This document shows positions 6,873 to 61,888 of a stretch of DNA of 64,000 bases, piece by piece. The notes beneath the pieces are model-generated. The model saw only the letters and a program-made list of their open reading frames with translations. It did not search any database and was not told the DNA's origin. The stretch spans positions 141,435,052 through 141,499,051 of the forward strand of contig CM041083.1 of assembly GCA_023079485.1 (NCBI GenBank), read 5' to 3'. The stretch comes from Archilochus colubris (lineage: Eukaryota; Chordata; Aves; Apodiformes; Trochilidae). Numbering within the stretch: position 1 is the stretch's first letter; every line of letters starts with the position of its first letter. The position numbers were made by a program, and so were the translations under genes.

Positions 6873-9800
6873 TTACTTCATTTTTTGTTTAAACCATATC
6901 ATATACCTTGCTGTGTTAGTGAATAGAAGTGTTTCCCACTCGGTGTCTTCTAGTGGCCAAGATCCCAGGATACCAGTCAGAAACCAAGTGCCCTTGTACT
7001 CAGTAGCTAAAAAGCCTCCTCCAGCCAGTTGTTTGTCTACAGTCTCCTGGAGGGCTCCACAGAACTGCCTGTTGGTGAGGCTGATGTTGAGTATTTGTTG
7101 GCAGTCCTCAGCAGGAAGGTAGGAAACCTGCAACTCCTCACCTCGAAGTTCATCGCCTTCCAGTCTCCAGGCACTGACTGTACCAGCGAATTTTGGGATT
7201 AAAATGTGTTCTGCAAAGTCTCTTTCAGGCATGCAGAGAGGAAGCTGGTGGTTGCTGCACTCAACGTGCTCCTGAAGTTGCAGTAATGCGATGTTGTTCT
7301 CACCAGTGTCTTCATCATATCGGATGTGTATGTGTTTCTCACTGACTTCCAGTATTTTCTCAGTTCCATTGGGCCCTGTGAAGCAATGGCATTTCACTTC
7401 TTTTAGAAATAATTTATAAGAGATCTGAAAACTGCAGGCAAACTGGCAGCTGCCTCGTCTCACGCTCAGAAATACATGCAGAAACTAAAGGTGCTCTTTC
7501 CTGAAACAGCTGCAGTAAAGGTGAACAAGGAATGATGTCTTGACAGCTTTTTAATTCTGTGTGGAAGTATGCTTGATTTCAGAAGGAAGGAAAAATATCC
7601 AACAAGTGAGTTCTGGCATGTAGCAAAAGTCACCTTAAATCCATCTGGTTTAGCTTGTCCCTAGCTGCCAAGTTCTGAATTGCATTTGAGAGGCTGTGGC
7701 CTCTTTCCTTGGCTTGGGACGTATGGGGCAGCTGTAGTTCTAGCTCAAGATACTTAACTGAGATGCTTAAATGAGATGGCAGTAAATTTTTTTCCTTTAA
7801 TAATATTTCTATGCAGCAAAAATTTTCGTAAGCTTGTCAACATTAGAATGTGCTACAAGAGGAGAAAATGTTTGGATCACCTACCAGCACCCACCCTGAT
7901 TTCAAAGTGGCTGTGCAGAAGGGCACACTCTGCTGTAGTCAGTACAAAGTTACTCTTCAGCAGCACTCCTCCACAGAAGCCCTTGCCTTCTGAGTTCAGC
8001 ATCAGGGCCTAGGAAAATGCAAAAAAGATGATGGGTAGCACTGCCCACGTCAGGTTGAATGATGAATGTGCTAGAAATACCTGCCACGGAAATCGCTCAT
8101 CACGTTTCTTCCTCGTTCCACTTATTGGATTGTCACTGTCTTGAAGTCTGCCACATGCACATTGATCTAGCAAATGAATGAAGAAATCAAAACGTCATGC
8201 TGTATCATTTCAAGAGAACTCCTACCTGCCTAATAACCTTATTGTTTCTACCTTGACTTTGGGGTTTCACTTTTACACCAAGGAAAAGGAGAAGGACAAT
8301 TCCTCAGCTCATTAAAATTGGAACAATTTGTTTGGCATCTGTAGTCTAACAGCTTAGTGATTGCAGTAAACAAACATTTTTTGTCATTGCATTAGTCTTG
8401 TGGCCACCAGATTTCACAGTGCCTTGAAACTGCTGAAATGAGGCTTCCTCTCCAGCCAGTCATCAGCACAGCTTGCTTCCTCTTCTTTGTATCCAATATC
8501 TGAATTGCACCAAATGCCGGGTTACTGAGGCCCAATCTGGACAAGGTGAAACATGAGTTTTCCTTGTTAAAGTTGTTACTCTAGAGGTGTACATGCCTTT
8601 CTCTTCCAGTTCAGAAAGCAAACATGCTTCACAAGTTGATACTCCAGTTATCTGCATTTACCACATTTTCTGTTCAGCTTGTGGCATGGTCTTGGGTCAC
8701 TCAAACTGGATCCTGTGTGGGTAAAGCTCAGTCAGAAAGCACCCTTCAGGACCTCTCACAGCACATGGGGGTTGCTTAGTCTACAGGATTAATGTAGAGC
8801 AAAGCAAAGCCCACCTGAAATGTGCACTGGATGTGGGCATCAAGCCTTCATCACCAAAAGTGTGGCTCCACAGCTCAACCCCTATTCAGCTCACTACTTG
8901 CTAATGTAGACAAGAGCCTAAGCATACTACTGTGTTTTTAGTAGGCTGAGGGGATACATGGTATGAGATGGGGAAAAATGAAGAGGGCTACAGCTTCAAA
9001 AGGTATTGCTCCAAACTGATTAAATGTAGTAGCAAATGTTACACTTCATCTATCAGACCTGGTGCCAATCTTAATCAGTTGAACCTCAATCACAGACAGA
9101 TCTTCAGTGCAGCTCCTCTTTACCAAGCATGGGAGTAGAAAACTCAGCCCTGTGAGTGATCTGTAGGATGATGCAAGTCCTTTCTGCAGACCCATGCTTA
9201 AATGTTCAGATTAAATATTGTTTCTTTTACCACTGCTCTGGCATCTTGCGTGGTGGTCCCTAGATTCCTCCTGTTTCTGCCCAGTTTAGAAGATCAGTAA
9301 CATTCCCATCACTTGAGTCTCCAAGCAGACTGATAGCATCTGGGTATCAGGTGCTGGCCTGCCCACCCCAGCACTGGGCATGTGCCCCCTGTACTTCAGA
9401 GTTCACACCTACCTAATGCAATGCACTCTTTTTTGTCCTTCCCAAGCTCATAGCCATCAGCACAGGAACAATGGTAGGAATTGCTTCCTGGGTAGCAGAA
9501 GTGGTGACATCCTTCTTTTGCTTGGTGGCGACATTCATTTTTGGCTAAACAGGATAAGTGGAGGAAAAGCATTGGGAGCAGCCCTGCAGAAAAGGCTCTG
9601 GGGGTGCTCCAGGCTCAGTGTGAGACAGCAACCACCAGGGCAAAGTGTATCCTGGGTGACATGAAACACAGCATGACCAGCCTGTCAACTGATCTGGGTC
9701 CCCTCACTGGTCCAGGCTGTGGTCCACTTTCTGTGCTCCCCAAGAAGCTGGTCTGTGTCCAGTCACACCCCTTATAAAAAAAATGACCTTCCCTTGCTGG

Positions 9801-12800
9801 AGCTGGGGCGTTTCCCAACCCGGGGGACCTCTAAGCCAGCAGAAAAACTGATGTAAGGGCTGGAAAGTAGAACCTGGCAGATGTAGAATTGTAGGATCCA
9901 TCCCAGGGTGTTTTCCATGCCAGAAAGAGTCCGTTTTGCTTTATGCCTTCTACGCTTCCACTGAAAATGGTTTGGTTTAGAATCACAGATTCATTGAACA
10001 GTTTGGGTTAGAAGAAACCTTCAAAATCATCTAGTTTCAACCTCCCTGTATGGCCAGGGACACCTCTCACAAGACCAGGTTGCTCCAAGCCCCATCCAAC
10101 CTGACCAGGACACTTCCAAGGAGGAGGCAGCCATAACTTTGGGCAACCTGTGCCAGAGTCATAGAATCATAGAATCATAGAATTGGCTGGGTTGGAAGGG
10201 ACCTCAGAGATCATCGAGTCCAACCCTTGAACCACCGTTGCGGTTGCTAGACCATGGCACTGAGCCACATCCAGTCTTTTTTTAAATATCTCCAGGGACG
10301 GAGAATCCACCACTTCAGTGGGCAGCCCATTCCAATGACGGATCACTCTTTCCGTAAAGAAATTCTTTCTAAACAACCAAACCCCCCACAACAACCACCC
10401 CGTCTCACCACCCTCACATTGAAGAATGTCTTCTTTATATCTAACTTAAATCTACCTTCCTTCAGTTTAAAACTCTTAGCCCTCATCCTATCACCACATG
10501 CTCCTGCAAAAAAAATTTTTGCAAGTCCCAGGGGACTGTCTTGTGGGTGCCTGTGGTCTCAGAGGCACCAGGGTGGTTGGGAAGCCCCTGTGGCACCACA
10601 GCCATTTTTCTTCAGGTCACATCACCTGGAACTGCAACAAGAATAGCATCTGGGGAGCATGGGTGGCAGTGGGCAGGGCTGCCTTTGGAGCCCACCCGTG
10701 GTAGGGACTTGCTTCAGCCCTTTTGCTGCATCCCCAGGAAGAGGGAGGCTCAGGGGGATGAGGCAGCCTGCTTAAACTCGGGATGCTGTAACATTTCAGC
10801 GGCCTGGTAGCAGCATCCATCACCCCTGCTCTGCCAAGAACCACGTCTTTCCCAGAAACTGGTAACTGGCTGGGAGATCTGCGTATGGTTTACCCCCTCC
10901 TCCAGGAGGAGATGAGGCTGCTGGGGAGAGGAGGCGCTGCCTTACCGAAAGCACAGTTCTCTCCCTCGTAGCCCTCGGCGCAGGTGCAGGTGTAGCCGCG
11001 GATGCTGTCCTCACACACTCCGTTGTGCTGGCAGGGGCTGGATGAGCACCTCCTGCCACCTGCAGGAATGACACAAGGGGAGGAGGGATGAGTTGCCACT
11101 TCCGCTGATCCACCCCAAAATACGCAGTTCCCACCCCCTTTCCCGCGACGTGAGCTGCTTGGAGAAGCACTGTGGAGAGCAGTTTGGAAGGAAATGTCTC
11201 TGCTTTCAGAGACTCTCTTGCTGGGAGGCCAGGAGGTGCCCAGGTAGAGTCTAGTTCTGAAGGATGGATTGGATTGGATGGGATTGGATTGGATTGGATT
11301 GGATTGGGCTGCCCAGGGAGGTGGTGGATTCTCCCTCCCTGGAGGTTTTCAAGAAGAGACTGATGTGGCACTCAGTACCATGGTCTGGGAACCACAGTGG
11401 TAGTGGATCAAGGGTTGGACTTGATGATCTCAGAGCTCCTTTCCAACCTGGCTGATTCTGTGCTTGTCTGCTTCAGGGAAAGCACTGACTTACAGTTCAT
11501 GGACTTTTTACAAATATAATATGAGACTGGTGCTGTAGGTCTCCCATGTTAGGTTGATACACATATGGATAAAGAAGTGATTATATGCATCTATAGATTA
11601 AAAAAACGAATAATTTGGCACCAAAATTATGCAGAGAGCAACATCAAACAAGGAGGCAATCTTCCTTTTACAAATCATTACAGCTATTACACAGTAGCTT
11701 GGACACTAGCAAGTTTAATCTTCCTGACAAACCAAACACTGAAACAGAAGGATGCATCACTGCGAATGAAGCACCAGGCAGAACTGCCAGTTTCCCTTTA
11801 GGCTGCTCACTTAAAAGACACCAAAAGAGTTTGGAAATGGTCTTCAAGTAACAACTGCTTATTGTACACATGAGCGATCAGGAAGCAAGCCAGAAAAGCC
11901 TGATTTGAGACGTGATCTTCAGCCTTTCTAAAATGTAAAACTTCATCAGCAAAGTTAACTGCAATCAGCAGACTGCCACAGTTGGTATCAGACATGGAAA
12001 GGTGAAAACTACCCAGAACTGGGAAAATCCACCCAACCTGCAGGCTATTGCTTAGGCTATGGGCATATTTATCTTTGAGAGTACTAAATTATTATCTTAA
12101 AGTCATCACCACCCTTAGCTTATCTTCAATGAGGTGCCACCAGCATACCCCAGCACAATTTAGGTCTCCTGGGAGGGTTTTTGGGATGTTAAGAGGCAGT
12201 CTCATCATCACAGATAAGCTGGAAGAGTTGAGGAGTGAGGACCTCCCGCAGCAGTGGATGTGTAGCTGGAGCTAGGGAAGGGCAACACCTACAGTCTTAA
12301 GCAAGTTAGATCATTTAATTTCATCCATCTGAAATGGATGCTCAAATATAGGTAAAGAAGTCTCAAACAATGTCTGGGGTCAGGTGGGGTCCTGTAAAAG
12401 TGGGAAAAAATAAACCTAGTGCCTAGCTTTACTAAAGCATGAAAGAGAAGATTCCAGGAATTATAGAAAAATAAGCACAATTGCTGTTACTGGAAAGCTA
12501 CTGGAATTGTGAGGCTGTTTGGAAGCTCCCAGCAAAGTAAGATGATTATAAGCAAAACCAAACATGCATACTTCAGCATCAAATAATCCAGACCCTTAAA
12601 CCTAACTGTGTTACAGGATAAGGGACAGAATGGGGAATCAGTGAACATCTTAGAACAGAAATATCTCCATGACATTGTCATTAAGTGAGCCAGGAAGACA
12701 CAGACTACTATAAGACATGCACAAAACCTTTTGGAAAATGATCTTTAAAGAGAGGTTCTTGGTAGCTAAGTTTATTCTGCTAATAAAAGAAGGTCAGGGA

Positions 12801-15800
12801 CACTTGTGCTCTCAGGCCAAGTGCCTTGGCAGCCTTAGGGCAAGATTCCAGTATATCAGCTTTTACTTGAAGAGACCAAGGTAGAGCAGTACAAAACAGA
12901 GGGTGAGCTAACAGCTCTGCCTCTCTTCCCAACCCTCTTTTATCCACAATGCAGATTTACCCACTGGACTATGAAGGCAGAGCAACAGAGGTCTATAAAA
13001 TGAGACTTTGGTAGACAGGATGAAAAACTGTTTGTTTAACAAGGGGGGGGGAAAGCCATGGAAATGCATGGCAACAGTCTTCAAAATGTTCGAAAAGATA
13101 CCACAAAGAAGGAAAGACATGTTGCTGTTCTGCAGGAAGAAGGGAGGACATAATGTCTTTTAATTACTGCAAGGAAAGCACCTCAGAGGACAAAGCCAGT
13201 AATATGTCCTGATTTTGGCTGAGCTTGTTTAGATGTACCATCCTCAACTTGTTCCTCCTGTCTCTTCAGAGAAGCCTGAAGAGGAAGCATGCATGATGTG
13301 CTGAGCACAAACCAAGGACTGAACTTAAAAGAAGTCAACTTCACCCTCAGAGAATTAATGAAAAGCCAGATAATTAGCATCATTCTTCATAGAATTTATA
13401 TCACTGATTTTACTCTTCTCTGCAATGTTCCCTGGACTCAGTGTTTTACTGGCTCCTGCAGAGAATTAGTACTAACTGCTTGTTTTGTCACCTCCTTATC
13501 TACTGTCTAAACCTGAGGTTAGAAATTAATAAAAGCTAAGAGATAATTTAGGACAACACATGCAGAAAAGAGGGAGGGAATAGGGCAGGGTCACGATGAG
13601 CTCCTTGTCTGGGAGGCATTTGGTAGCATGAGCCACCCAGCATTTACAGATTTATTTCTTTCCTTGAAGACTGCCAAGGGATGGTGCAGTGCCAGTGTCC
13701 AGGGTTTGCAGGCAGTCCAGTAGCTTTTAACACCTCTTTACCTCATTCAGGTTTAAGTGTTAGCTTTGTATTTGGGAGGTTTTGCTGGGGGAGCTGTTCT
13801 GCTCTGTTGCATCAGCAAAGCAGAGTTCTCAGGTCCCAGGCTGTTTCAGAACAGCCTTAAATTCAGGAAAAGAAATAGCCTGTTTACTATGATAACAGCT
13901 ACTCACCTTGATTTTTACTTTGCAGTCTTAAATGATTTTCCATATTTATTACTTTTTCAACAACTTTCACACCAACACTTTTCTAAAAACATCACAAGTA
14001 GTGAGCTGGGTGTTTCTTGTAGGAGAAACTCAGAAAACCAGCACTGATCTGAAACCATTATGTTCACAGTGTGACACCACTATGAAGGAGGGAAATCAAG
14101 AGGCTAACTTACCATAGTAAGCTTCCCAAAACATTTCCTGAAAAAAGGAGAAAAAAAGATAAATTATATTTTAATTCTCAAATAATATTATCTTCCACAA
14201 ATATTTTGGGAAAACAAAAATATTACACGAGAGAATATGTACATCTAACATTTTTTTTTAACATTTACACAGTTGCATAACTACAAATTCTGTCCTGCCA
14301 GCAAAATTTGCATGAGATGGGAGGGGGTTGGCATCCTGCTTATTTTATTGTTCCTTAAGAAGCTGGAAAAGAAAAGAAACACTTTGCAGGCAAACAGCTG
14401 AATCCTGTAGTGATACAGCTTCCTGGAAAAACTGGCTGGCCATTGTCTCTCTAGTCTGCAGTGGCCTGGGAAGTGACTCTGTCTCATCCTGTCCCACCCT
14501 GCTTGGCCCCCAGCAGGTGCTGCTGGAGGCAGAGGGGACAGCAGAGAGTGAGTCTGGGGGTCACAGGCACTGGTCAGCTCCTTTCTGTGCCCCACTTTTC
14601 CCTGGGTGCATGCAGGCAGCTCTGCTACTGCTTTCCCCTCCCTTGTATCTCCCCTCCATAAACTTTCTCCATGGGAGTTTCCTCTGCTTTCCCATCAGAC
14701 ACAATTTCTAGCCAGATTCCTCTTAAAGAGCAGAGCATCCAGCTGTACATGTCAGGAGGGCCTGGCAGATGCTGACCAAGTGGGATTCTTTCTATAGATC
14801 CCACAAGATGCTGGTGAGTTGTTTCCCTCCAACCCAGCACCCTCTTGCTGCTCCTGCTCCCTCTGGGTTGCTGAAGTTATATTTCTATGTGTGGTCACAA
14901 TGGGACAAGAGCCATAAATTTTCACAACATAAGGCACAGAACACATGGTTTACAGAAAGGGAATTTACAGCTGCTAGAGTTCACCTCTGCATTTCCATTT
15001 TGACCGCTGAATATACCTATTTGCTACCTTCTGAGGTGGAAAATGCAAAGACTTCACATGGAGAAAACCATCCCAAAAAATTATGCAGGCTGTGGAGCTG
15101 TATTGGAGAGTAAAGGACCAAGGCAAAATTTTTTATTATGCATGCAGAAAACCAAAATACTTACAAGCATTTCATCATTTTCAAACACTTCTCTTGCTTC
15201 TTCATGAGTACATCTCTCTTCAAGGCATTCCCTTTCCAAGCTGCCTTGGAGGACCTCTTCCAAAAGTAGGGAATTGGCACGCCTCTGTCTCTTGATGACA
15301 TTGTTTGCATCATCAGCTGATATAAATACTGGAGTATTGTGTGACAAAATGCTGTCATAAGTTTGTAGATTCACTTTCTTACATATTTTTACCTCCTTTT
15401 ATGAAAAATAAATCCTTTTGATTGATTCAGGGTTTCAGCCACCTTAAACTTACATACTGAAAGAGCCCTACTTTCTTAGCCCAAACTCCTGCTGAGGAGC
15501 CATAGTCTTTTCCTTTTGGGGAATGCCTGACTTGCTCCCAAGCAGGAGGAATTTGAAGTCCTTCCAGACACAGTTTGTTCCTCCAGTGGACAGACAGAGC
15601 AGAGATGCTGTGGCACAACTGGCTAAGGAGAGAAGTACTAACATAAAGGCAGAGGCTATTTTGTAAGAGTGCATCTCAGACTCACCAGCAGAGGTGAAAA
15701 GAATTTCTAATTATTTATGATCATGGGTTCACACTGAAGCTCTTCAGTCTTAGTTCAGGGAGATTTTTTTTTCTTTTTCTGAGAAGCAAAACATTGACAT

Positions 15801-26455: not shown

Positions 26456-27003
26456 TTAAGAGTTTTCTGTCAAAATACTTCTTACCCACGGCAGGAACTT
26501 TGACAAGTTGGTGTACACACCATATTTCCCTGGCCTTCCACAGTCTTGTCCCCAGCTGATGATACCAGTAACAAAGTAAGTGCCATGGTATTTGGTCACA
26601 TGGGGGCCTCCTCCATCTCCATTGCAGGCATCTCTTCCATCTTTATCATAACCAGCACAGAACATGTTTTCTGTGACTGGAGCACGAAGGGCGACCTTGC
26701 AAGTGTCCCTGTCCACATAAGGGATTTGAAGCACTTTCATTCTTTTGACAGGCATCGATCCCGAATGTTCTATCCCAAAGCCACTGATAATTCCATATGT
26801 TTGATTCATCAGAACATCATTAGCAAAGTGCTCTTCTGGAAGGCATGCTGGGACAACATCCTCAGAAAATGTGATAGGTTCCTCCAATTTGAGAAGGGCT
26901 ATGTCTTTGTCAAAAGTTTGTGTATCAAATTCAGGATGTGCAATTATTTTTTCCACTCTGTGCAGTGCTCTACTTGGCTCTTCCTTTTCCCTGTCCACCA
27001 TCC
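26456..27003 (-). CDS. F10L last exon (catalytic-domain C-terminal part)
   Basis: Encodes [11 protein letters not shown] through VRSILTENS and a TAA stop. The active-site loop is [12 protein letters not shown], where F10 has [12 protein letters not shown]: the serine codon AGT is GGA here. It carries an N-glycosylation sequon NQT that is NQR in the neighbouring F10. Acceptor TCTGACACAG. Confidence 0.93.
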
Positions 27004-30000
27004 CTGTGTCAGATTAGTAAAGTAGCTGTTAGTAAGACAGTACCAACAAGTACAAACTGCATCTCAATAAGAGAAGGGACCAAAGTTCCTTGTACTTTGA
27101 CAAGGCATTGTCTTGTACAAATAAAACAGACTAGTCCTGTATCCTGATGATGTAGCATCTCATACACATTTTGGAGCAAAAATGCCAAGCAAGGAGATCA
27201 GAATTTTCCTATCGAAATAATGGTCTCAGTGAAAGCACTGATATAATATTTTGGGCTTCATTACAATGTTCCCAATGGTACTCCTACAACCAAAAGCCTC
27301 AACACAGAAGAGAAGGATTTTGCTCCTCTAATTCGTAGAGCAACATAGTCAAACAGACTTAAAAGGGAAGTAGATAATAATCATCTTCCAAAACTTGAAC
27401 ATTCTGCATACAAAACCTTAAGAATTTAAATATGTTTATTCTTTCTCAATTTGTATGAAGTCTCTTTGGGAATTAGACAGGCAATTGGATTTCAGGCATA
27501 TTCAATATTTGTTTTATGATTGCAGGCTGAGTACAATTTTTATCTCTCAGAACACCTTTTTTTTCAGTACCTAGAACTTACCTACCTTTTCAGAAATTAC
27601 AGTCATAAATATTAAATTTGAGGTTTCAGGTGTGGAACAGTCTCAGATTAGTATTTACATGCTGTCAAAATGGTTATGGCTAACATCTGATTGAGGCATC
27701 TGGAATTCTTCAAGGCTTGGCTAACACAGGAAATTTCATGAAGGTGCAATGTTAGACCAATTGAACTGCATCAGCTCAGCCTTACTTGCCCACCTACCTT
27801 TCCAGTTTGTACTTGGCTTCTATCATATACAAGCTACACCAGGCCAAGCCAAGCTTAAAAAAACTGTCCATTCAAGAAACTTGAACATATATTTCAGTGT
27901 TAGTCAAGGGACAGGAAGAGGCAGTGAGAAATAACATGAGGGTAAGAAAAACTCTAGCAGAGTTCTGTGTTTTCTGTTTCAAGACTAAAACACAGTACAG
28001 TTTCTCATTTTTGTAGTGAAGGGCAAAATGGGAAGCACTTACCCACAAGAACCCGTAAATCTCTAGCGTGTTTAACACAAGATGCTCCAGAAAGTACAAA
28101 ATACTCATTCAGAATTGTCCCCCCACAAAACCAATTATCTTCCTCTCCTACCAGAACAGCCTGTAAAGAGAGAGAAGAAAGACAAAGTACAAGAACATAT
28201 TTATAGCTAGCTGAGATTTAAGCAGTTTTCTTCAAGCTGACAGTCTGATGGGTGTTTTATTTCAAAGTCATCCTCTGCTCAGAGAGTTACATTGAGCTGT
28301 AGCCACCCCAGAGGGAAGCTTGTTAAGACAGAGCTGTTTACTGGCTAAAAGCTGAGTTTGTGCAGAGTTATTTTACCAATGGGTTTTGGTTGCTGTTTTT
28401 TAAACATGTAGCTAATAGTGTAATAGCACACTCCTTTTGTTTCCGTTTTTTCACTTTAGTCTTGGTCACAACAGGAACTCAGACAGTTCATGGGGTGGCT
28501 GGCAGGCAAAGGGTTCTGTTGCTCACATCACCCTGCTCTACATCCTGGATCTGCAACCCTAATCTCCTGTCCTCCCTCTCTCCACATTTGCTCGATGCTG
28601 AAATGAAGGCACAGTGTCATTCATGGTGGGAGACCTCTGCTTGCACACAGGACTCAGGAGAGTGGAACAGCCACCCAGAATATTGGCACTGTCTCAAAGC
28701 AAGCTAGGTCCCCTTGGTGAATGGGGGTATGATGAAGAATAAATGTCTGCTGGTCCTGGTGAGCAGGGTCAGATGTTAAACATCTCAGGACAAGGGCACC
28801 TTACCTGCCATGGGGCTGTGATGGGTAAATTGTCAGCGTCCTCGGTGACCTCTGGATGGCTGCTTGGGGCCTTGGCTGTTCCCTCACTTTCAGGATGAGC
28901 ATCTTGACTTGCTGTGGTTCCTGTGACTTTCTCTCGACCAGCTTTATGTTTTCTCTGAAGCTTACCACATGGGAACTTGACTGAGAAGGCAAAACCAAAA
29001 TGCTAATACTTGATGTCTGGATGGTACTGGGACTTTCAGGCACATGTTGTATGTTGAGAGCAAGGCATTCCCATCCATAACCCTGACCAAACAGGTGTGA
29101 AGGCTCAGCTGATGCTACACAAGTCTTCACTCCAGCTCAGAACTGTCTTTCTTGAAGATTTAAGTGTATTTATAGGATGTGGAGAACCACAGTCTTCCAT
29201 CTCTCAGAGGTACAGTGCCTGTGCTGTCCCTGAATCATAGACTCATAAGATGGTTTGGATTGGAAGGGACCTTTCAAGGTCATCTAGTCCAATCCCCCTG
29301 CAAAGACATCTTCAACTAGATCATGTTGCTCAGAGTCTCATTCAGTTTGACTCTGAATGATCCCAGGGATGGAGACTCTACCATTTCTTTGGGCAACCTG
29401 TTCCAGTGTTTCACCACCCTCATTGTAAAAAATTTCTTTCTTATAGGCACACTTTAAGTTTTGAAAGGCCATAATAAGGTCTCCCTGGAGCTTTTTCTTC
29501 TTTAGGCTGACTAACCCCAACTCTCAGCCTTTCTTCATAGGAGAGGAAACAAACTCTTCAGGAAATCAACTTTTAATGGAAATGAGAAAAAACTCACCTA
29601 ACAGCTCAAGGACGACTCCTTGAGCACAATCAAATTCGGTATGCAAGTGTCTATATCAGGGTTGGTTCTGCATGATGTTTTAAGTCACTAAAGATGTTCT
29701 CTTAAAATATTAAAGATGTTCTTTTTAATATCTTCATTAAAGATCTGGATGAGAGGATTGACTGCACCCTCTAAGATGGCAGATGACACAAAGCTAGGTG
29801 GGTGTGATGATCTGACAGAGGCTAGGGAAGACTTACAGTGGCATCTAGACAGGTTGGATCAAAAGGCCAAGGTTAATTGTATGAAGTTCAATAAGGCCAA
29901 GTGCCAGGTCCTGCACTTGGGTCATAACAACCCCTGGGGATGTGTGGTTAGAAATCAGCAAGTTGGAAAGGGACTTGGGGGTACTGGTTGACAGTCGACT

Positions 30001-33000
30001 AAATATCATGTCCTGCACAACATTGTGGTCTCTAAACTGGACCAATATGGATTTGATGGATGGACCATTCGATGGAAGGAAAAGGAGGCTGAGAGGAGAC
30101 CTTAGAGCTCTCTTCAGCCACCTCAAGGGAGGTTGGAGTGGGGAGGGAAGCAGTCTCTGCTCCTTAGGGAACTGTGATAGGACCAGAGGGAATGGGTGGA
30201 AGCTGCACCAGGGGAGGCTTAGGCTGGATGTTAGGAAACATTTTTCTCTGAAAGGGTTGCCAAATGTTGGAATAGTCTGCTCAGGGCAGTGGTGGAGTCA
30301 TCAACCCTGGAGGTGTTTAAAAGGTGTTTGGGCCTGGTCCTTAGGGACATGGTTTAGTGGTGAGCTTACAGTGTCAAATGTTGTCAGTCAGAGATTGGAC
30401 TGTGTGTGTGTGTGATTCTGTGTGATTAAAAAAGCCCTCGCAAAAGTAAGAAAGAGGGGGATTAAAATGATTGAAAAGTTAATATAATTTTCTACTTCTA
30501 AAATTTGCCTGTTTGGGGCAAGTAGGCAAATTGGTCTAGTATTTTCAAAATATTTAAAAGTTAAACAGTTTTGATTATTGGTATCATTATTTTGTGTACT
30601 GCCTGTTATTAAAACTTTTGTAATTTGGAAACTGGGTGAAGTATCCTATATTAAGAATTAGAAATGCACGACAGCAATCTGGGCTTAAAATATGAGGGAC
30701 ATCATAACGAATATAATCAGACAGGCAAATACAATCAGACAGACAGAAGAACAGATTAAGATTAATAATTGTTAATGTTCACTTTCTCTGGATACAGGCA
30801 AAACGGATGGGTTTAAATTCAGTGTCAGTAGTTATTCACATATTAGATGACTATAGCTTAACTTTGGAAAATTAGCTTTTAGAAAAAAGTAGAAAGGAGG
30901 GTTTTTTTTTTCACATGGAGCAGCTGACATTTTACAGTAAGCACATGAGATATAACTGCAGTCATATTATGTGATTCCCATTGTGCTTGAGGACTCTGTC
31001 TTGGAAAGGGAGAAGTTTCTTGGGTTCCTACTTGTTTGCACCTGTAGGTGTTCATCACTTTCTGGAGACCTTGAAAAAAGACACCAGTTTTCACCAATGA
31101 AAAACCTAACCCATTGCTTTATAGCAAAGCCTCCTGAAGCACGAGATGCCTGTGGGAGAACCAGGGTGAGAGAAGGAGAACCTGAACCCCATTGTAACCA
31201 CTTGTTTTATATATAGCTTTATATATGCTGGGACATAAGTTTTGCAGTCTACTCTGAGAGAATTCTTATTTGCACAGAATGTGTCTTTGAGCTATTTTTG
31301 CCACTGAACATTGCTCACAGTTGCACAATTTGATGTTATTTAAATTTTGACCTTAAGCTAAGATCTTATTATCCTTGTTGGTAACACCTGCAGCAAGCAA
31401 TGCACAAAGAGTTAATATTATTCCTTGTGCTTCAACTGTGCTGCAACACACCAGCATTCCCCAGCCGTGGTGAAGATGCAATAGTTCACCCCCACAGAAT
31501 GAACTTCAAGTGTGACTTCTTACCTACAGGAAGGCAGGTTTTGTAGTCAGTGCCTAGGGCATAGCCAGCAGCACAGGAACAAACAACTCCCTCATCATCA
31601 GCTTTGCAGAACTGCTCACAGTCCCCGTTGTTGACCTTGCATGCGTTTGGTAGGACTGCAAAGGAGAGGCATTTATAGGAAGGGTAAAAATTTATGGTGA
31701 TTTCATAAAAGCACAAGCAGCTCTCAAAACCTGGTTTGCAAGTACTAGTCAACCCCCATACTGTGAAATTCTGTGCAATTCCTGACAAATGCCTTACCAA
31801 TAATGTAATTACACTGATTTAAAACCTGGTAAGCTGTCAACATTAAGTAGACAAATTTTATTTTATATGTAATGCTGTGTTTCCCAGTTCTAAGTAGCAG
31901 CTCTTTGGGGACAGAGGAAAGGATAATCCATACTCACCCAAATGGCCATTGTACTGAGGCAAAGATGAGCATGGCTGTGGGTAAGAGGCTAAAATCAGCA
32001 ACAAATAAATTTTCAGTAATAAACGGTGCATTGGACTCTTGATAGATCCTTGTGATATTCCTTTGCCACCTGTGTGTGGCTCATACTACTCACCTTAGCT
32101 TAGTCCCTGGCACTGGAAGATGGCAAACAGCATGGAAGAGCTCCTCCCAGCACCAGCAGCATGAAAGCAAGAAATAACCCAGTCGTAACAGATGCTGCCT
32201 AACCTGTTCCTAGAGACTAATGATGAGACTCCAGAGAGCACCCACACAGCCCTATAACAACTCAAAGGTTTCCTAATCTAACCTGAGTGTCCCTCAGTGT
32301 CATGTGGTCTCACTACTTCTTGTCCTAGCTGCTCATCCTTGTGGAAATGGAGAAAAGTTGAGTTTATTACATGGTTTACAAATTTCCTTGGTTTCTGTAT
32401 TGTGTGACCAAGGGTGAAATTTTGGGTTTGTGTTTACTGAATTGCCTCCTATTTCTGTTGGACCACTCTTCAAGTTTCCCAAAATAGTCCTGAACTCTCA
32501 TTTTGACTTATGGTTGTCTTTGAAATCTGGAACAAGCTAAAAGTTCAGTGAGTACATACTCAGTGTGGAAAATGCCCAGTATCAGAGGTCCTCAGGCCCA
32601 CCTATCTGGAGCCTTGCATTCCATAGCATATCATGTTGATCTGATTTTATTTACTCATTTGCTTTCCTGGTTTTGTTTCAGGATATTTGCAACTCTTTTA
32701 TACAGATCTAAATTTTTCTATACTTTCTTCTGGAGGGTAGGTCATGAAGGAGCTCTTGATTTTAATGAATCCTCCAGTCCTTTTGTCACCTTGGGATAGT
32801 TTGGACGTGTGCCTCAAACACTTTGGGGTTTTTCTCTCTGTTAAAAGATCTTTCTCTCTGTTAAAAGATACATTAATTTTCTTCTCTTGTTCTTTTTCCT
32901 TTAATTCTGTCATGAGCTCTGTCATTTTACAACTGAAGTTGTCTTCAGTCTTTTTACTGTCAGACACTTCTGCTCTGCTGATGAAAATCGAATGCAGGTG

Positions 33001-33860
33001 AGTGAACACAAGATTGCTTTCTACATGTTTGTATGAGAAAACCTTCCTTGAAACATCCTGAAGATTCTCAGGGCACCCTGTGTCCCTCTAAGTACTTTTT
33101 CTGCTTCATCTTTGGGATGTCAAAATATGCTTCTAACTCCCAGCTCTTGTACTGTGAATGACTCAGATGTTTTTTTTAATTGTGTCCAACCAGTCCTCTG
33201 TAATCACCAAATGACTTTTACAGCAAAATCGAACAACAAAGTATGTATCATCTACAGCATGATTCACAAGCTTACTCTGTAGAGAAGCATCTCAGGCTCC
33301 AACCTCAAAGACAGGTGGGGCAGCTCCTCAGGTGGAGATGGGATGTTTCTCTTGAGACTGAGACAAGCACAGTAGGTGATGATGTGGGGTCCTGGTTCTC
33401 CTCTGCACTGTTAAACCTGTCATTCATTTTGTCACCCAATTGCTTATAAATGGACAGTAATGGTTATTTAATCGTCACATCTCTTGAGGACATGAAGAAT
33501 TGCAAATGGTTTGTGCTGTCAGTTTGAAAGCTCTGTATACTGACATATTCACCCCATATTTTTTACTGACACGATTGATTCAGTCCAAAATGGCATTTCT
33601 CTAGTGACTAAACCCTGGATATTATTGCACAGCAGCACTCAAATAGGAGCAAGGTGGCTGAGAAAGCCAAGCTACCAGGTTTTCAACCACATCGCCCCGG
33701 ACGACAAAGCACAAATAATGGCAAATAATTACCTGTGTGGTTTATAGAAAGCAGCACAAAGTCAAGTCAAAGCAAAGACTGTACCTGTCTGCACCATCTG
33801 AAGGTAAAGGAGGACAACAGGAAGAAGCCAGACTGTCCCACGGTGCCCTGTCATTGCCAT
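26456..33860 (-). CDS. F10L: Gla-less, catalytically dead factor X-like gene
   Basis: Secreted factor X paralogue; function unknown. Exons: 33785-33860 (signal), 31938-31988 (EGF1 remnant), 31524-31655 (EGF2), 28805-28980 (linker), 28043-28160, 26456-27003. They sum to 1101 nt, an uninterrupted 366-aa frame with canonical splice sites. Exon 8 is the same length as in F10 (548 nt) and clearly homologous ([20 protein letters not shown]). His57 has become Ser (LSGASC) and Ser195 has become Gly (GDGGGP); Asp102 (DKDIALL) and Asp189 (RDAC) remain. The Arg-Ile-Val-Gly-Gly site is replaced by NLPITAPWQ. The Cys22-Cys27 pair is lost as a pair; 42-58, 168-182, 191-220 and the interchain Cys remain. 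No Gla or helical-stack exon is recognisable, but skipping both keeps phase. It lies between PROZ and F10, with a PROZ-like 5' end. It could be a pseudogene, although the intact frame argues against that. Confidence 0.82.
28043..28160 (-). CDS. F10L exon carrying the former His57
   Basis: 118 nt, the same length as the F10 counterpart. Reads [14 protein letters not shown], then [21 protein letters not shown]10 has LTAAHC where this has LSGASC, so the catalytic histidine is Ser while the Cys42-Cys58 pair is kept. Acceptor CTTTACAG, donor GTAAGT. Confidence 0.9.
28805..28980 (-). CDS. F10L linker/activation-peptide exon without cleavage site
   Basis: 176 nt, against 251 nt in F10. Reads [20 protein letters not shown] and ends [13 protein letters not shown]. 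The interchain Cys of FPCGK is kept. The Arg-Ile-Val-Gly-Gly activation sequence and both cysteines of the 22-27 loop are gone. A basic RKH-K stretch remains near the old two-chain processing site but is not a clean dibasic RKKR as in F10. Confidence 0.87.
29234..29550 (-). mobile_element. CR1 LINE 3' end, inverted
   Basis: Reverse-complemented tail ATCATAGACTCATAAGATGG, then GGTCATCTAGTCCAATCCCC, then CTCCCTGGAGCTTTTTCTTC. In the F10L intron between the EGF2 and linker exons, upstream of a longer sense copy. Confidence 0.85.
29725..30425 (+). mobile_element. CR1 LINE, RT C-terminal part plus 3' UTR
   Basis: The longest CR1 copy in the window. It reads the reverse-transcriptase motif ADDTKLGG followed by [20 protein letters not shown], then the 3' UTR landmarks. 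The frame is broken in several places, so it is a dead fragment. It lies in the same F10L intron. Confidence 0.9.
31524..31655 (-). CDS. F10L EGF2 exon
   Basis: 132 nt, phase 1-1. Reads [15 protein letters not shown], then [19 protein letters not shown], so all six EGF cysteines are intact. NNGDCEQFC is identical in F10 and quite unlike the PROZ EGF2, so from this exon on the gene is F10-derived. Confidence 0.92.
31938..31988 (-). CDS. F10L shrunken EGF1 exon
   Basis: 51 nt instead of 114, still phase 1-1, between acceptor TTGCTGATTTTAG and donor GTGAGTA. Encodes [17 protein letters not shown]. It aligns with the start of PROZ EGF1 ([10 protein letters not shown]) and F10 EGF1 ([12 protein letters not shown]), but keeps only one cysteine and stops where a new donor has arisen. 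No EGF fold is possible. Use of this exon is inferred from phase and splice sites. Confidence 0.6.
33785..33860 (-). CDS. F10L signal-peptide exon
   Basis: 76 nt. Reads [20 protein letters not shown] then QMVQT, a good signal peptide, with donor ACAG|GTACAG in phase 1 as in PROZ, F10 and F7. DNA resemblance is closest to PROZ exon 1 (both end in a shared ACCTGTCTG-type donor region on the plus strand). A second in-frame ATG lies two codons further on. Confidence 0.78.
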
Positions 33861-34010
33861 CCTCCAAGCTCACTGTGAGTTTCTCACCAATGTGTCTGCA
33901 GGGCTCTGTGGCAGCTGGTAAATAAGAAGCGCTGCAGTGCAAAGGTCATTAACTCCTGAGAAAACAAAACCTCTAAGAGCAAAGCCTGGGCTCAGTGTCA
34001 GCGTGGGACA
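33861..34010 (-). promoter_or_regulatory. F10L 5' flank, PROZ-like, with HNF4-type site
   Basis: The minus strand reads TGACCTTTG (33940-33948) about 85 bp before the ATG, a good HNF4-type element at the position aligned with the PROZ site. Further up, 33952-34002 is similar to the PROZ flank and unlike the CpG-rich start of F10. This suggests liver expression and a PROZ-type promoter; binding is inferred. Confidence 0.5.
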
Positions 34011-38066: not shown

Positions 38067-50095
<12,029 letters not shown>

Positions 50096-50351
50096 GGTGG
50101 AGGGGAGAGACCCCCTCATACCCCCCCGCCGCTGCTGCCGGGCCTGCGGGTCCACACCACGGACGGGACGGGACGGGAACCGAAGCCTTCACCCCCCCGG
50201 GCGGGGAGAGACTGAAGCGACGTTGCTTCACCCTTCTCAGAAATAGCGGAAGCGCCAGGGAAGGGGGAAAATCGCCACGGGATTTCTCACACGGGGACAG
50301 GACGGGACGTGGGGTGTTGGGAGGCTACGAAGATGATGGGGCTTTTCATCT

Positions 50352-50402
50352 TCCCTTCTCTCTCTCTCTCTCTCTCTCACTCTCTTTTTTTTTTTTTTTT
50401 TT
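50352..50402 (+). repeat. (TC)n microsatellite and poly-T
   Basis: A run of TC dinucleotides with one CA interruption leads directly into about 20 T residues, just upstream of the F10 CpG island. Likely length-variable. Confidence 0.9.
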
Positions 50403-50591
50403 AAGGAAAAAAACTTTAAAAAAAATTTTTTTATTTCTTCTTTATTTATTTTTTAATTATACCTGTTATTTGCGGGGGAGGGGGAAGTGAGTCGTCACTT
50501 TAATAAGCAAGAGGTGGCCCGGGATGTTCGGGTCGGGCCGGCAGTGGCAGATTCTGGGGCCAAGCAGGGACAAGGATGGCTTTCCACCCAA

Positions 50592-52941: not shown

Positions 52942-61888
<8,947 letters not shown>

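Follow-up and report, generated by a model that had tools for sequence, protein, structure and literature searches.

Identification of a catalytically inactive factor X paralogue

A 64,000-nucleotide stretch of the genome of the hummingbird Archilochus colubris (assembly GCA_023079485.1, contig CM041083.1, positions 141,435,052 to 141,499,051; hereafter the window, with positions counted from its first letter) carries on its minus strand, at 33860..26456, a gene termed X in the following, which is, as judged from sequence comparison, a real, bird-wide, non-catalytic paralogue of the coagulation factor X gene F10. Its product is probably a secreted, inactive factor X-like binding protein which is not membrane-bound and which originated from an F10 duplication in the bird stem. 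An earlier reading of the same DNA (the sequence-only reading) had proposed a secreted, dead F10-like paralogue without Gla domain, and this proposal is well supported, the nucleophile being absent from all 55 bird sequences compared.

Residues of the active site and the activation site were assessed in an alignment of 55 X sequences (54 database rows and the window) and 21 F10 or F10-like rows, whereby the database X rows were those sharing 59% identity or more with the query among the best 120 of 613 matches, chosen irrespective of residue 195 and each representing one cluster at 90% identity. Three rows labelled LOW QUALITY were kept in these residue counts and left out of the tree and the site comparison, which involve 52 X rows including that of the window. 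Ser195 was found to be replaced by Gly in 55/55 X rows, for which parsimony on the 73-row tree requires one change, while Asp189, Gly193 and Asp194 are kept in all 55 and Asp102 in 52 of them, the window included. His57 is retained in 37/54 rows, is Ser in the window and was reconstructed to have changed at least 11 times on the same tree. The exchanges of His57 for Ser and of Ser195 for Gly, both claimed by the sequence-only reading, were hence borne out, and so was the disappearance of the Arg-Ile-Val-Gly-Gly activation site from the window copy. The Arg15 column holds Glu in all 19 of the 55 X rows which have a letter there, the other 36 being gapped or partial. Cys22 is present in 0/19 and Cys27 in 5/18 rows, a loss to be expected as the activation segment is gone, and the other cysteines are near-invariant. 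Formation of an acyl-enzyme needs Ser195, which is established serine protease chemistry; with this residue missing, no acyl-enzyme can come from X, and without Arg15-Ile16 its normal switch-on is impossible. X as an active enzyme was rejected. The Gly193, Asp194 and Asp189 pocket found in every row would be compatible with an enzyme that works through another residue, but with Ser195 in none of 55 rows, the activation Arg in none of the 19 rows with a letter and His57 lost many times, the probability of this is close to negligible.

Beyond the catalytic residues, X was found to carry features of its own. Comparing the 52 X rows with 12 bird F10 rows, 13 protease sites are fixed differently (at least 90% on each side), four of which are located near the pocket, at 185B-187 and 221. 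In the calcium loop, Met occupies position 70 in 45/55 X rows, and the four palaeognath rows have Glu or Asp there. Four glycosylation signals are X-specific, namely NGT (44/55), NQT (31/54), NLS (31/54) and NKT (14/19), none of them being found in the 12 bird F10s. Of these signals, NQT and NLS are still present in the window copy; NGT and NKT have been lost from it. Among the matches listed, no X row carries the source tag 'lgn', which we took without proof to denote assembled reads; one row with this tag, P0078, has kept both Ser195 and the activation site.

Gene structure and domain content

The six-exon model of X (33860..26456), as it had been proposed from sequence alone, shows canonical AG/GT borders, matching phases and 366 codons. 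Exon 1 (33785..33860, minus strand like all others) contains the ATG and a hydrophobic, signal-peptide-like stretch in an open frame of 25 codons plus 1 nt, ends in phase 1 at a GT donor and is 88% identical to its counterpart in Phaethornis and 92% to that in Heliangelus. It is followed by the proposed exon 2 (31938..31988; 51 nt, phase 1-1, AG/GT borders), the EGF2 exon (31524..31655; Pfam FXa_inhibition, 89% identical to Phaethornis), the linker exon (28805..28980; VKFPCGK ... APWQ), which is devoid of Arg-Ile-Val-Gly-Gly, an exon with the first part of the pseudo-protease domain including the exchanged His57 (28043..28160) and the last exon (26456..27003), in which Asp102, Asp189, Gly193 and Asp194 are kept, Ser195 is Gly and the stop codon is located.

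Exon 2 was compared with an alignment of 13 X orthologue models from other birds. Ten of these have a full N-terminus and 346-350 residues, two start from a later Met (340 and 341 residues), and the Phasianus model (331 residues) has a different N-terminus and start and is without the exon 2 insert; in 12/13 models the signal peptide joins EGF2 directly. Since the orthologue models proceed in this way, exon 2 is probably non-coding, and EGF1 is thus to be regarded as absent from X rather than shortened; without the 51 nt, X comprises 349 residues, like the orthologue models. As a consequence, the borders, phases and codon count of the earlier model stand, exon 2 probably does not, and the accompanying idea of an EGF1 reduced to 17 residues was discarded, as the orthologue models omit the segment. 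The 51-nt stretch may nevertheless be a relic of EGF1: its 17 residues gave shuffle p-values of 0.007, 0.01 and 0.003 against EGF1 of F10, F7 and PROZ. A protein-level EGF1 scan of the whole intron yielded a score equalled by 6/60 shuffles, and the DNA of intron 1 showed no similarity to the F10 EGF1 exon above chance (17 as compared to a shuffle value of 20.3, with 198/200 shuffles reaching the observed score).

Pfam identified EGF2 (PF14670, E 6.5e-12) and a trypsin domain (PF00089, 2.4e-53) in the 366-residue protein, so that EGF2 and the trypsin fold are kept, and the crane orthologue was assigned the FXa fold; neither Gla nor EGF1 was matched by Pfam in the same protein, and the 51-nt stretch is only weakly similar to EGF1. 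Similarity to the F10 Gla exon reached a score of 29 in intron 1 of X (equalled by 52/60 shuffles) and of 33 between F10 and X (25/60), as compared to 145 for the control in the F10 region; the shuffle test is not applicable to the helical-stack exon because of its small size. The earlier statement that no Gla exon can be found hence agrees with both scans, including that of intron 1, where a transcribed Gla exon had been named as the finding that would overturn it. A main transcript with further upstream Gla or EGF1 exons, which would render X membrane-bound, is highly improbable: the orthologue models are without Gla and EGF1 and the Gla scores stay within those of shuffles. In favour of such a transcript are the emu entry, which is titled isoform X2, meaning that another isoform is annotated, and the weak EGF1 likeness of exon 2.

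Origin and distribution in birds

The four related genes F7, F10, X and PROZ follow each other in this order on the minus strand of the window, as identified by tblastn and similarity. The protease domain of X is 59% identical to that of F10 in the window, and its last exon is 59% identical to F10 versus 30% to the PROZ-like gene. The tree of 73 proteins (214 columns, mostly protease domain) places X in a single clade (support 100/100), sister to bird F10 (99/88), with crocodilian, turtle and mammal F10 outside. The X clade spans palaeognaths, fowl and Neoaves, whereby palaeognaths split off first and fowl form a separate clade; this tree does not resolve where the turaco Corythaixoides belongs, nor the branching order inside Neoaves. 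X is accordingly read as a tandem F10 duplicate which arose in the bird stem after the crocodilian split. Among the matches listed (best 120 of 613, 1677 and 655), no X was found from crocodilians, turtles or other reptiles, and no chicken X protein; the closest full-length match there is a Phaethornis superciliosus protein (80% over its length) and the best match to the protease part a partial Calypte anna protein (96%). The existence of 54 database rows, together with the coherence of the tree, led to the rejection of X as a gene-model artefact, and that it is PROZ itself was rejected due to the separate PROZ-like gene at 15329..6879.

A separate observation concerns two passerine proteins (P0022 and P0030), 413-residue 'factor X-like' entries which combine an X-type signal peptide with an EGF1-EGF2-active protease body and group with bird F10. 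One possibility is that a chimeric factor X, without Gla domain but with catalysis intact, replaced X at its locus in passerines.

Function and evolutionary pace

With Gla and EGF1 missing, X should not bind calcium and phospholipid in the way F10 does, and without catalysis, activation and membrane anchoring it is most likely a binder; the soluble decoy or regulator suggested by the sequence-only reading is a putative role. Provided that exon 1 serves as signal peptide, the product would be a single chain of some 324 residues, consisting of EGF2, an unactivatable linker and an FXa-type domain without nucleophile. Such a molecule would act as a soluble binding protein in a zymogen-like state, and its likeliest partners would be those which meet factor X via EGF2 or the protease body. 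That the partner comes from coagulation, as opposed to being an unrelated ligand, is conceivable yet somewhat doubtful, and the fully specified version is a speculation that we consider unlikely: in it, a soluble dead factor X that evolved once before the basal split of birds would vie with factor X or Xa for a partner in plasma and thereby adjust clotting independently of vitamin K.

Several findings weigh against a retained binding function. The median root-to-tip distance is 0.36 for X (52 rows) versus 0.066 for bird F10 and F10-like rows (15), so that X evolves about 5 times faster. Sites 35-39, 60-61A, 93-99 and 143-150, around the old active site, are invariant in the 12 bird F10s and variable in X, which argues against the binding of FXa inhibitors there. 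Three of the 54 database rows (Pluvialis, Morus and Ciconia) are labelled LOW QUALITY, a label which usually marks corrected frames, no parrot, falcon or passerine X is among the matches listed, and decayed copies are under-counted, since databases filter their models for open frames. Moreover, neither a partner nor a transcript nor a verified peptide of X was found. A functionless duplicate which is dying slowly throughout birds, and whose frame owes its openness to chance and to the filtering of databases, would account for the fast evolution, the repeated loss of His57, the LOW QUALITY models and the missing groups. It was judged very unlikely, however, in view of the near-invariant cysteines, the invariance of Asp189, Gly193, Asp194 and Gly195 in 55 rows and a ratio of nonsynonymous to synonymous substitution rates (dN/dS) between X and F10 in the window of 0.27-0.35 (dN 0.28-0.30, dS 0.80-1.07; 222 codons, three methods). 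For the X branch itself the ratio was roughly estimated at 0.4-0.5, by our own apportionment in which 48/57 assignable changes fall to X and dS is split evenly, with dS being near saturation and 36/93 differences being unassignable. The open frame and the 80% identity to the Phaethornis protein exceed chance expectation: when 5000 random sequences with matched dinucleotides and a length of 349 codons were generated, none stayed open.

A more restricted form of decay has to be considered for hummingbirds, in which the gene may be on its way out, since X evolves fast there and one hummingbird model is truncated. The window copy has the second longest distance from the X root among the 52 rows and, since the split from Phaethornis, accumulated 27 changes, the Phaethornis branch having 14 and another 14 being unassigned. 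Gly218, found in 49/49 other X rows with a letter, is Asp in the window and in Calypte, and the loss of the common sequons NKT and NGT fits in as well. In the Heliangelus exortis model (P0018) the linker exon is missing, and the frame continues into intron sequence and stops right after Trp215; this possibly reflects a pseudogene, but may also be due to an assembly or annotation fault. Against decay stand the intact frames and splice sites of the window copy and a neutral simulation of its branch, in which an intact copy had a probability of 0.013-0.029 when indels at an assumed ratio of 0.08 were counted; considering stop codons alone, the probability of finding none is 0.21-0.34, hence not decisive and a further point in disfavour of retained function. 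On this balance, an X which is relaxed and decaying in hummingbirds though still open in the window, and functional in other birds, is a tentative alternative of limited but appreciable probability.

Comparison with known systems

F10, the adjacent parent paralogue, shares with X the EGF2, the linker, the FXa-type domain, its disulfides and the Asp189 pocket, whereas X is devoid of Gla, EGF1, Arg-Ile-Val-Gly-Gly, Ser195 and often His57. PROZ, a neighbour in the cluster, is likewise a Gla-family relative whose catalytic triad does not work and which exerts its effect as a binding partner of the serpin ZPI, but it keeps Gla and EGF1; as X is far closer to F10, catalysis was lost independently in X and PROZ. 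Zebrafish f7i documents that a duplicated clotting protease gene can turn non-enzymatic and inhibitory, yet it is a factor VII copy in fish and hence a separate event, and haptoglobin is a secreted trypsin-fold binder without catalysis that differs in its other domains and its lineage. The venom factor X of Australian elapids is an active enzyme. To our knowledge, birds are regarded as having a single F10 among their clotting factors, and we know of no mammalian counterpart of a built-in dead factor X decoy. If the binding-protein reading holds true, this dead F10 copy, retained without its vitamin K-dependent domain, would add to plasma a new component that standard proteomics can measure. 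It would also provide a clear example from nature of how a protease fold becomes a binder, the nucleophile having been lost once for good and the general base having drifted many times later. As far as the accessible part of PMC13320979 goes, the F7-F10-PROZ region of these sauropsids has likewise retained an additional F10 copy, though one which is venom-expressed and results from its own segmental duplication. Bird clotting is unlike that of mammals, with FXII reported to be absent in birds (PMC4486697, in the part accessible).

Expression hints and prior description

The motif TGACCTTTGCAC (33937..33948, minus strand), 77-88 bases upstream of the X ATG, resembles an HNF4/DR1 site and is the sole exact match in the 64-kb window. 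It is a weak candidate, since matches with one mismatch allowed are at chance level in the window (3 versus 3.9 expected) and F7, F10 and PROZ are without a full match there; the HNF1 pattern is at chance level too (25 matches versus 28 expected in the window). A chicken plasma protein, LOC771012 'coagulation factor X-like', was reported (PMC6205363, in the part accessible) and is at most a hint of X in plasma, as no chicken X was among the matches listed. The name 'coagulation factor X-like', under which databases already list X automatically, occurs in six papers of the open-licence literature, a bird being the subject of one. Neither a Gla-less nor an inactive bird F10 copy was found described in the accessible parts of that literature (including PMC6205363, PMC13320979, PMC4209140, PMC9643190 and PMC4486697), subscription papers being mostly outside its scope. 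The earlier claim that X is not a described clotting protein thus holds for descriptions in the literature, but not for database entries, and X is, as far as the open-licence literature was searched, annotated but uncharacterised.

Neighbouring genes

F7 (52948..59391) extends on the minus strand from its Gla exon (59391-59227) to its last exon (53481-52948) and was identified by tblastn and a Gla Pfam match, its name resting on gene order and similarity. F10 (38073..46845, minus strand) was located by tblastn with Ammospiza F10 from the Gla exon (46845-46684) to the last exon (38618-38073), whereby its signal exon was not located in the window by this search. PROZ (6879..15329, minus strand) likewise extends from a Gla exon (15329-15171) to a last exon (7364-6879) as found by tblastn, its putative name being based on gene order and the missing catalytic His and Ser. 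Between F7 and F10 (49532-50490), long overlapping open frames of up to 273 codons were observed on both strands, three of which gave no Pfam match. Within an intron of X, the stretch 29232-29445 is about 67-69% identical to two stretches of the F10 region (45894-45684 and 39048-38838) and looks like an interspersed repeat.

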